Source: Capitulum mitella (Eukaryota > Arthropoda > Thecostraca > Pollicipedomorpha > Pollicipedidae). From it: a stretch of DNA of 64,000 nt. Under the pieces are notes generated by a model. The model was not told the origin of the DNA. It saw only the letters and a list, made by a program, of their open reading frames with translations, and searched no databases. Shown one piece after another: positions 5,080 through 23,948 of the stretch. The position numbers and the translations under genes are program-made. How positions within the stretch are numbered: the stretch's first letter is position 1; the number at the start of each line of letters is the position of its first letter. Where the stretch lies: NCBI GenBank assembly GCA_030062745.1, contig CP099841.1, positions 3,968,001 to 4,032,000 on the forward strand. Reading direction: 5' to 3'.

Positions 5080-6135
5080 ATAATTTAATCAGCACTGCCC
5101 GAAAGTCTGGCCAACTGATTCCAGGGTTGCCTAGAAGTCAGGAGACAATCAGCGACGCGGCACGGTGCCACCGCCGCCCGCCTTTGCCAAGGACACGGTG
5201 GCAGCAGAGGGCGCACTAAATGAGGCCCGCCGGCCGACGTATTTACGAAAGGCATGCCGATACGGCACCAGGTTTCTTTGAGTGGCTGTGTAGCACTGCT
5301 GCGGCGTAGTCCGTTTCAGCTATTTTGGGGGTAAACACACAATGCGGGGTCTTCTGTTCTGCTCTCCTTCGTCCCACTCGCCGGCCTGTCGTTGCGTTTG
5401 CGGCCGCGCGCGTGGGAGCCGCTGCGCGTGCCGTCGCTGCGGTGGCCGTTGCCTGCCGAACGGCTTGCTTTCGCTAAAATGTTTGCCGACCCACCGATTG
5501 CCCTCGGAAAGTACGTACAAATCGCTGAGGCGGTCATTTCTGATCGTGCATATGGACAGTGAGTGACGCGGGGTGGAACGGAAAAGGCGAGAGAGGGGAA
5601 GAGGCATTCCGGGGATGACTTTGTAACGGCGGAATCCGGGAACCTTTTACTCATCCCCCCCCCCCCTCAGCTACCTATATCGCCGCACGTCGCCCCAAAA
5701 AAACCTTTTAAGTTTAGTCGTCAAGTAGACAATGTGTTTGAGCCATTTTAGTTAGGTGTAGGCCAGCACAGACTGCGTGCTAGTTTGTTTTAAAATGACG
5801 CAGCTGTGTTGTAGTACTCCACGACGAATGCAAACTGGCCGTCACGCACGTTGGCTAATCCTCCTCTGGTCCATAATTACCCTCTCCAGGTTTCACCCTG
5901 TGTCCTATCCTAGTGACAGAAATGACTCACCCCATCCCTCCCTTCACCTTCGATTTCTTTTTCCCAGCTCCAGTGACGTGCCTTGTCAACACCGGTTGCA
6001 AACGTATGCGGTTGAGACTGTTTCGTCCGTATGCCGAACTTTCTTTCGTCAAGTTTAATTCAGCCCGGCCAGCCTTTTCACCTGGCCAAATGATCCAGCG
6101 TCATTTCAGTGGCTGCCTGGGGTCCCCGGACTTCT
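5080..6135. other. No supported gene
   Basis: CpG-rich, with a poly-C run near 5657-5667. No conserved protein was recognised. Confidence 0.4.
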
Positions 6136-20005: not shown

Positions 20006-23000
20006 TCAGTCCAGGTACGGCAGCACCGCCTGCCGGATGACGGTCACGTTGTGGTGCCACAGCACGTGCGGCACGCCGGCGAACGTGTGCAGCCGCATCG
20101 CCCGCCTCTTGTCCAGCGTCTTCAGGCCGATGTCGTCCTCCCGGTAGCCCCTGCGCCGGTGGACGGGCACCACCGTCATGTTGGCGTCGTAGAAGCCGAA
20201 CTGGCTGCAGGAGGCGGGGGCGGGGCGTCAGAGACCGCGCGGAATCGACGACAGCAGAGTGTCGGCACTAAATGAACCCGGCACAGCTCACGCAAGACCG
20301 AAAATCGCGCGCTCGCATTCGCGGACGGAGCCGACACCGCAGGACCGGAAACCGGGCGTCATCACCACCGCACCTTCGCCAAGAACGACGAATCCGGAAC
20401 ACACAGTCATCAACCGCGCTGACAAAAAAAGAGATTAGCGCCGAAAAAAAACGAATCATCAACACCATCTATCGTACAGAAATTTCATCTCTCCACTCAG
20501 GCAGGGTGGTGGCCGATAACATGACCCAGCCAGCAGGTAATGACTCCATCTCTCACCACCTCTGCTTAAGAGATGATTTCATCTCTCGCCTGCTCTGTCA
20601 CGGGGTGATGACTCCATCTCTCACCTGCTCCGCCAGGGGGTGACGACTCCATCTCTCACCTGCCTGTCAAGGGGTGATGACTCCATCTCTCACCTGCTCT
20701 GTCACGGGGTGATGACTCCGTCTCTCACCTGCTCTGCCAGGGGGCGACGACTCCATCTCTCACCTGCCTGTCACAGTGTGATGACTACATCTCTCACCTG
20801 CTCTGACAGGGGGGTGATGACTCCATCTCTCACCTGCTCTGGCAGGGGGTGATGACTCCATCAAAACCTGTTCTGCCATGGGGCGAGAACTCCATCTCTC
20901 ACCTGCTCTGCCAGGGGGGTGGTGACTCCATCTCTCACCTGCTCTGCCAGGGGGTGATGACTCCGTCGTCCGGCCCTCCGATCAGCACCAGCCGCCTCAG
21001 ACGGCACAGATTGCGCCGATACCGCTTCGAATCGGCCGTCACCGCCTGTCGCGCACGCAGCGACACTCAGCGACACGCAGCGAGACTCAATGAGTTGCGG
21101 CGCGACTCACTGAATTGCAGCAAGACTCAGTGACACGCGGCGAGACTTAGTGAGCCGTAGCGCGACTCGGTGAATCGTAACGAGACTCAGTGAATCGCAG
21201 CGAGGCCCAGTCACTAGAGGGGTCACCCAGTGACTCAAAGCGTGACCAAGTAACTTGGAGCGAAAATCAATGAATCGCAGCGACTCAGCGAACCAAAGCG
21301 AGACTCAGTGAAACGCAGCGAAACTAAATGAATCGCAGCCAGACCCGATATGGTGCCGCTGCAAGTTGTCGGACCTCCTGCTCGGCTCTGACTCGAGAAG
21401 AGGTGGGTATTACTTCAACGCAGAGGGCGTTATGTTCGCAGAACACGAGAAGTACTGTGGGGGTGCTGGCACGGTACAAAACTGTTTTGAAAACGTTCCA
21501 TCGGTGGCGCCACAAGGCTGAGATAGTCATCTGAATTGCTCCATTAAAGGTGGAGAAACCACACGGTATATCGAGTTAGTCTTGAAGAGGAGGAGTGTTT
21601 TGACGGTTCTTTCCTTTACGCCAGCCCCAAAGCAAAAAAAGACGGAAGCCTACGTTTGAAAACCAGTTCCAGAAAGCATATCAGATCTGCACAACCTTGT
21701 GCTGATAAAAGCTGACATGCATGCGGCAGTCATTTGTCACAAACACACATCCACGTTGACGGTGCAGCATAACCAAGGGTCTCGCGCTTGCTTCTGGCTA
21801 TTTCCCGTTAGCTAACCGTCAAACACCAAAAACGCTCCTTTTAAAGGCATTCCACAAAAAGGGGTTCTACCATCAAACTGCGCGAACCTCTAACAGATGC
21901 ATCGCTACTCCGTAAGCTTTGACGCACAGCAGCTCCAGTGACAGCACCAACGATCTACCACGATGTCCGCGGTGATCGCGAGTCAGCCGTCCGTCAGCTT
22001 CGTTCGGCGCACCTCGTTGTCGATGGGCGCCAAGAAGCGGCTGTAGGCGACGTACTTCTTCTGCTGGTGCGGGTCGTTCCAGTAGTTGCCGACCGACGTG
22101 TACTGGCCGAGCCGGTTGTAGAAGAGCCGGTACGCCTCGTCGCGCACCACGCCCGGGAACACGAGGTGCAGGAAACCGTCTGCAACGGCCACCGGTCAGC
22201 AACCGCCGCAGCCGAGTCCGCCGCAGACCGCGATCCACGACGACGAAAATGTCCACGGAAACGGACGTCATATCGGGCAAAACGGCGTCTTGGAAACTGT
22301 CGAGGAACGTTTGCCGAGCAGCTGGTTATCCTTTCAGACTCTCTGGTCGCATTTTGCACTGTTTTATGCAGGAACTTGGAACGCATCAATAACGGGTGGT
22401 CAGAAACGGACCCCAACGTTTTGCCATTCATCCTGCAAAACCCAACATGAACTTTATTCATCACACAAAAAGCAATATGTCAAGAAAAAAAAACTTGTGA
22501 AAGTTTGCAAAAAAAAAACAAACAAAACAAGGCAACAGTTCGTGAATGGAGCGGGCTGCTAAACAAAGGGTCCGGTGCTCGGGCTACCGGTAAACTTACC
22601 TCCAAACTGACCAGCCTGGGGTGGAGCTGAGTGAAATGAAAGTGCTTATGTTATGGTTGTCCCAGTTTTCTATCACTCCTCGGGCAACCAAACCACCTTG
22701 CGAGTACCCTGAAAAATGAGCACAGGCAAGAATGGTACAAGTTCCTTGACTATGTCTCTTGAATGTCTCAAAAACATACAAGCAGGCCAGATTAATAACA
22801 AGTATCCAGCAGAGAGAGAAGAAATACAAGAAATTAAAAATGCAAGAAAAAATACAAGAAATCTGCCATATCACTGGCAACAGAATTGCAGGTGAAAGAC
22901 TGCTTGAGTTTTGATGGCATCCATACTAAAAGGTGGCGTATAAAATGCATGCTTTGTAATGGAATTCAATCAGTGTTTTCGTTCTGTCTATTTCCTTTTA

Positions 23001-23948
23001 AAAGAAGCACAAAGATCCCAAATCCTACTGACAGTAGCCTAAGACACTGGGCAAAACAACTGTGACTACAACTCATGGCAGGGACTGGTACCAGTCTCTG
23101 AAACTTGGGGTCAATAATACCATTCAGCAAGTTCAAGCACAAAAGGACAGACAAGGACAGCATAAGCACAAGACACATTACAAAAGAATACATATGAAAT
23201 GACATAAACCTACCCTTTATTTCATTCTATGATTATTTTCTTTGGGTTTCTGAGCAAGTAACTTGATTTGTGAATCATAATATCCATTATGCTTCCAACT
23301 GACCTATTTTTTCAGGGTTTAAAAATTATTTCTGGCTAATTTTTCATGCTATTTTCATCAACATCCCCCTGTCATCCACTGCACAATGATGCAACAAAAG
23401 TTAGAAGACCTGGAGCAAGTCATCACTGAGGGATGATGTCAAGGCCAGACTACAGTTTTTTTTTTTTTTAATAATCATCCACAATTCCACAGAAAATTGG
23501 ACACTGAAAACATGACCAGCAACACTACTGCACCAATCCCAATTTCTTTCTGGAAAGTTGCTATAGTAGGACATACGTATTTTAAATTCCATGCATCACA
23601 CTATACATGTGACAGCTCACATACTTTCAAATACCTAATAAGTTGATAACCCTTAAAAAAACACTACTTACCTATCAGGTTCACCTTCTTCTGTTCTGTT
23701 TTTCAGAAGCTTTTTCATCTCTGACTGGAATCCCTTTACCTGTCTCCACATAGGCTCCAGGCTGTAGTAGTCAGGAAACAAATTCATGTTGTGCACTTCA
23801 GTGCCAGGATGGGCCTGGAAAAAATCAAGAAAACTTTAGAAAGCATGTCATCACCTCTACCTGTTGTGTAAAAGGTAATATGCAAGGTTCTTGCTAAACA
23901 TGTGTTCTTCTTGCAACAAGAAGAGCACATGTTGCCCCTGACTGCAAC

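Follow-up and report, generated by a model that had tools for sequence, protein, structure and literature searches.

As read from its sequence, the 35-bp tandem array at the exon 5/intron 5 boundary of the barnacle PPT2 gene is a 'mirage', a known kind of minisatellite that spans an exon-intron boundary. The first donor of the array is probably the one used, with the other copies behaving as inert intron. Arrays of this kind have a name and precedents, and in the barnacle genome they are not special to PPT2. The original prediction, which described a splice site amplified in tandem and proposed that copy number might tune PPT2 output, is sound on anatomy and over-read on function.

The window, which is the whole stretch of 64,000 nucleotides analyzed here (C3:3968001-4032000), belongs to a genome of 477 Mb in 16 contigs; according to a figure legend, 16 chromosomes would fit barnacles (PMC11331182). 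PPT2 is encoded by minus-strand exons of the window, as identified with PDB 1pja and Pfam Palm_thioest. The closest PPT2 proteins among 826 homologues are those of two barnacles, Pollicipes pollicipes (76%) and Amphibalanus amphitrite (73%), and on these alignments the host genome is a barnacle's. Exons 5 and 6 match human PPT2 (1pja) with an E-value of 1.5e-25 and Palm_thioest with 1.3e-20, and their junction, WQS/SQFGFY, aligns gap-free in all five PPT2 proteins compared (three from two barnacles, one each from krill and a wasp). The predicted coding exon 5 (20939-21045, minus strand, 107 bp), which is also supported by tblastn with a Pollicipes PPT2, is thus genuine. It ends in GGA GTC ATC ACC CCC TGG CAG AGC AG. 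The last intron, number 5 by our exon reading, carries the array and occupies 20205-20938 (minus strand; first base 20938). The coding part and stop of the last exon (20006-20204, minus strand), delimited by the sequence, the 1pja match and tblastn, contain histidines that are invariant in the PPT2 protein alignment.

Apparent frame anomalies occur in exons 3 and 2 (22599-22707 and 23670-23814, minus strand; sequence and tblastn). As assembled, one apparent extra base near 22622 shifts the frame of exon 3 (tblastn with Pollicipes PPT2), and no matching frame was found for the four residues that precede the nucleophile motif where exons 2 and 3 join, using the sequence, the protein alignment and tblastn. 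A sequencing error, an allele or a recent loss that has left a pseudogene may lie behind these anomalies. PPT2 may consequently be non-functional in the assembly and, if it is dead, the constraint on the exon copy of the array would have lapsed only recently. No second PPT2 copy was detected in the genome: all six PPT2 matches at E ≤ 0.001 lie within the window, leaving no second intron as a paralogue control. In Pollicipes, by contrast, there is a second PPT2-A-like protein (P0003). Two further features of the locus deserve mention. TRF reports a second minisatellite with a period of about 20 bp (21056-21344) on the acceptor side of exon 5, reaching to about 10 bp from the acceptor, so that the 107-bp exon is flanked by minisatellites on both sides. 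A possible alternative last exon lies inside the last intron at 20271-20441 (minus strand), where about 50 codons without a stop follow a sequence that resembles a strong acceptor, ctaatctctttttttgtcag.

TRF places the 35-bp array at 20529-20964 (12.5 copies, score 539), while a split into units and an alignment of U1-U12 extend it over units U1 to U13 (20512-20964, minus strand), starting at 20964 within exon 5 and reaching its far end at about 20512. Each unit, GGAGTCATCACCCCCTGGCAGAGCAG/GTGAGAGAT, consists of 26 exonic and 9 intronic bases, with about 12 further copies running into the intron. U1 (20930-20964, minus strand) sits on the exon end and carries the true donor, CAG/GTGAGA. At all 35 positions, silent sites included, U1 is identical to the consensus of U2-U13, which excludes chance resemblance and bears out the prediction that the unit is the end of exon 5 plus its donor. 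Exon 5 is the source of the unit, since its end encodes a motif kept in all aligned PPT2s and the consensus equals the exon copy. The same identity suggests that the array is young or has been kept uniform with the exon. The two degenerate units, U12 and U13, deviate from U1 at 11 and 12 columns, the remaining copies at 1-9; this decay affects one array end only and spares the exon end, as purifying selection on the exon copy would explain. Within the reach of the genome search, the array DNA matches a single place, namely itself.

GTGAG is kept in nine of the twelve units after U1, and the unit split located all nine downstream donors of the original prediction (20551-20905, minus strand; at 20902, 20833, 20797, 20763, 20728, 20693, 20659, 20624 and 20556). 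Eight of them have the true donor's 9-mer, CAGGTGAGA, and the last reads GTGGTGAGA. The predicted spacing of 34-36 bp applies to intact units that are direct neighbours; with U3 reading GTTTTG and U11 GCGAGA, two intervals are widened to 69 and 68 bp. RNA folding of the array gave a weak signal (z -2.1; 1 of 100 shuffles equally or more stable).

The array appears to have grown partly in blocks. Units U6-U8 (20788-20685) resemble U9-U11 (20684-20581; together 20581-20788, minus strand), and the mean difference of units three apart is 4.89 versus 6.64 in 5000 shuffled orders, with 0.2% of the shuffles as low; among the six offsets tried, the other five were unremarkable (27-59%). These pairwise distances support growth by multi-unit duplication and reveal, in this single assembly, past turnover of the array. 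The AGGTGAG columns are not detectably better conserved than the others, with 4 of 70 versus 27 of 280 differences in U2-U11 (Fisher p 0.36) and 5 of 77 versus 37 of 308 when U12 is added (p 0.22); the nine intronic and 26 exonic columns, U12 included, do not differ significantly either (p 0.09). None of these comparisons gives a significant signal of selection on donors within the array, and the idea was set aside.

We propose that a 35-bp segment across the exon 5/intron 5 junction was first duplicated in tandem and that slippage or unequal exchange would then have lengthened the array, in part by blocks of three units. The first, exonic copy would have been retained by selection because it encodes the conserved motif. 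The spliceosome most likely picks the first donor, which adjoins a defined exon, a choice also favoured by the amphioxus reports (PMC3087553) and the conservation of the protein, and the remaining copies would be spliced out as inert intron. The source in the exon and the multi-unit duplication agree with the earlier proposal that the array was seeded at the junction, whereas slippage or unequal exchange as its mechanism, like the neutrality of the array, is what we infer. Provided that splicing keeps to the first donor, a minisatellite born there does not alter the mRNA, which would explain why the genome can carry many such arrays.

Use of any downstream donor would have a drastic effect, as was predicted and can be read directly after AGC AGG: the sequence AGC AG/G TGA adds an arginine and then an in-frame stop, and translation would end before the last exon, where the invariant histidines lie. 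The distance from stop to junction is 32 nt for U2 and 101-378 nt for the other eight downstream donors. Under the 50-nt rule of mammalian nonsense-mediated decay (NMD), most transcripts from downstream donors would thus be NMD targets. These distances fit the idea of a copy-number rheostat, according to which the downstream donors compete, transcripts with WQSR and a stop are degraded or yield a dead enzyme, and array length tunes PPT2; so do the eight copies of the true donor's 9-mer and human IFI6, where transcripts are reported to take two downstream minisatellite units as donors (PMC4526556). We nevertheless regard such tuning as unlikely, given that the donor columns bear no sign of selection, that unrelated genes carry similar arrays and that amphioxus mirages reportedly have no effect on splicing (PMC3087553). 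First-donor use itself has to be set against the description that, where two donors are comparable, the intron-proximal one is favoured (PMC6002489), which would predict that downstream copies are used.

It appears more improbable still that the array is a weak enhancer, with spare donors that recruit U1 snRNP and so promote splicing or prevent premature polyadenylation. Additional donors upstream of an authentic one can enhance it and the 35-bp unit is close to the reported U1-protected span of 23 nt of exon and 12 nt of intron (both cited in PMC6002489), yet the other 15 arrays read have periods from 23 to 50 bp (search range 20-50 bp) and the donors are not conserved within the array. It is very improbable that the intron itself was born by tandem duplication of an AGGT-bearing exon segment, as in the model of Rogers (1989; summarized in PMC4974935) that has also been proposed for amphioxus mirages (PMC3087553). 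Every intact unit does contain AGGT, and the array is a tandem duplication of an AGGT-bearing segment as in that model; unlike in the model, the segment already had a working junction, neither the acceptor (intron end 20205) nor the 3' part of the intron is built from the unit, and the joined coding sequence, AGCAG/CCAG, lacks AGGT.

In keeping with the preferred reading, a mirage spliced at its first donor, donor words are also arrayed elsewhere in the genome. Three AGGTGAG at a spacing of 20-50 bp, a range that misses arrays with longer periods, give 1719 matches (827+892) in the whole genome versus 285 (164+121) for the reversed word, the only control of this enrichment, while the single words number 56378 and 41241. 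Match counts overstate arrays, as 46 of the 100 donor matches listed and 40 of the 100 control matches listed come from one array each. The listed donor matches represent 15 arrays on C1 up to 21.12 Mb; the reversed word has one array in the same stretch and 28 among its 100 listed matches, which reach C5. At the single-word ratio, 15 of 16 arrays with AGGTGAG has a probability of 0.002. The word CAGGTGAGT has 66+35 triple matches in the genome versus none reversed, and the 100 matches listed form 22 arrays (two of them, on C6, look like mutual copies) versus none; with 3851 versus 2374 single words, 22 of 22 has a probability of 3e-5. By linear extrapolation from C1 we estimate about 340 AGGTGAG arrays genome-wide, not all of them at exons. 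Whole-genome counts were used because the window alone (AGGTGAG 11, reversed 4) is too small a base.

Other splice-site words are arrayed as well. The donor AGGTAAG gives 68+34 triples versus 23+11 reversed, far fewer than AGGTGAG and partly in simple repeats. For the acceptor-side word TTYCAGG the figures are 381+302 versus 78+65, many of the listed matches being one dispersed repeat family. This family repeats TTTCAGG every ~21 bp (TTTCAGGGGCACCTCGGACAGTTTCAGGGACCC...) on several contigs (e.g., C1:13793029 and C2:7169110) and is probably a mobile element. GC content is higher in the 12 arrays within the window than in the window as a whole (0.57 versus 0.50); given this richness and a possible bias to genic DNA, the per-word excess need not mean that donors attract arrays. 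That 5' splice sites of the barnacle lineage are preferred birthplaces of minisatellites is accordingly no more than a tentative suggestion, which we hold to be somewhat doubtful. Probably a few hundred exons would then be followed by 3 to ~50 copies of their own end and donor, the exon-adjoining one being chosen among identical donors against the described intron-proximal preference.

All 15 arrays behind the 100 listed AGGTGAG matches were read. In five of them homology supports an exon before the first donor. These exons encode an ALMS motif (L035, E 5e-8), an F-box (L037, E 4e-17), a NUP210-like segment (L045, NUP210, E 9e-9), an ERMP1_C domain (L043, E 2.5e-10, from two pieces joined by hand across the junction) and part of a PID-type protein that is 78% identical to a Pollicipes protein and alike until the exon end (L048). 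At the F-box, ERMP1, NUP210-like and PID-type loci the array extends 19-44 bases into the exon, and at L035 it starts only 3 bases before the donor. At L040 the match to ERM_helical is weak (E 0.009, below the cut-off), the PDB search of the exon gave no match and the first donor reads GTGTGT. Coding-like exons at L036, L038, L039 and L041 are putative, as open frames alone are weak evidence for exons in such GC-rich DNA, and no exon is evident before the arrays of L034, L042, L044, L046 and L047. Searches of five exons in NCBIfam and of several pieces in Pfam yielded no identity, and PDB held nothing for the L038 exon. A PDB match of the L041 exon to a leucine-rich-repeat protein had no significant single stretch and was discarded as spurious. 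At L038 (C1:4792200-4799500, minus strand), a 45-bp array of 49.2 copies (TRF) holds 48 copies of AGGTGAG behind a putative exon. Beyond the first donor of this array no stop interrupts the reading frame for 464 codons, and reading through it would therefore yield a protein repeat. The same locus, in reversed orientation, has another array of donor type at 5758-5946.

Mirages were described as minisatellites of unstable length across exon-intron boundaries of amphioxus genes (PMC3087553), namely Adh3, the globins BflGb6 and BflGb9 and troponin C, with similar imperfect duplications in PGBD5 (PMC3087553, PMC3902484). For Adh3 and the globins, splicing is reported to be undisturbed (PMC3087553). 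Like these, the PPT2 unit spans the boundary and repeats the splice signal, with AG/GT in many but not all units, and the exon copy lies at the array edge; its 35 bp fall within the 10-72 bp given for Adh3 (PMC3087553, PMC3902484). The barnacle, an arthropod, differs in lineage, and splicing and length instability were measured in amphioxus, while our case is built on sequence comparison. Moreover, the amphioxus reports name single genes, whereas we estimate a few hundred barnacle arrays of donor words. A human minisatellite in IFI6 (6-16) supplies several donors (Turri et al., 1995, via PMC4526556; IFI6 also in PMC2572611). As in IFI6, the PPT2 units carry donors beside a real exon, but two downstream IFI6 units are reported to produce isoforms, whereas the downstream PPT2 donors would give arginine and a stop. 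The Pollicipes genome paper (PMC8917513) does not use the terms tandem repeat, minisatellite or satellite, and a full-text search, which leaves most subscription journals outside and is no proof of absence, found no paper combining barnacle, minisatellite and intron.

The kind of array is known; what is new is its lineage and scale, and it is the number of such arrays genome-wide that most deserves further study. As far as the literature search reaches, boundary-spanning minisatellites are extended from lancelets to an arthropod, which raises the question of whether minisatellites tend to arise at donors. The cause of the preference for the intron-proximal site when two 5' splice sites are comparable is described as not known (PMC6002489). 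In a genome where many exons repeat their own donor, as seems to be the case here beyond PPT2, the gene for a lysosomal enzyme, the choice among identical donors would be readable from RNA-seq at scale, a natural experiment in splice-site selection.
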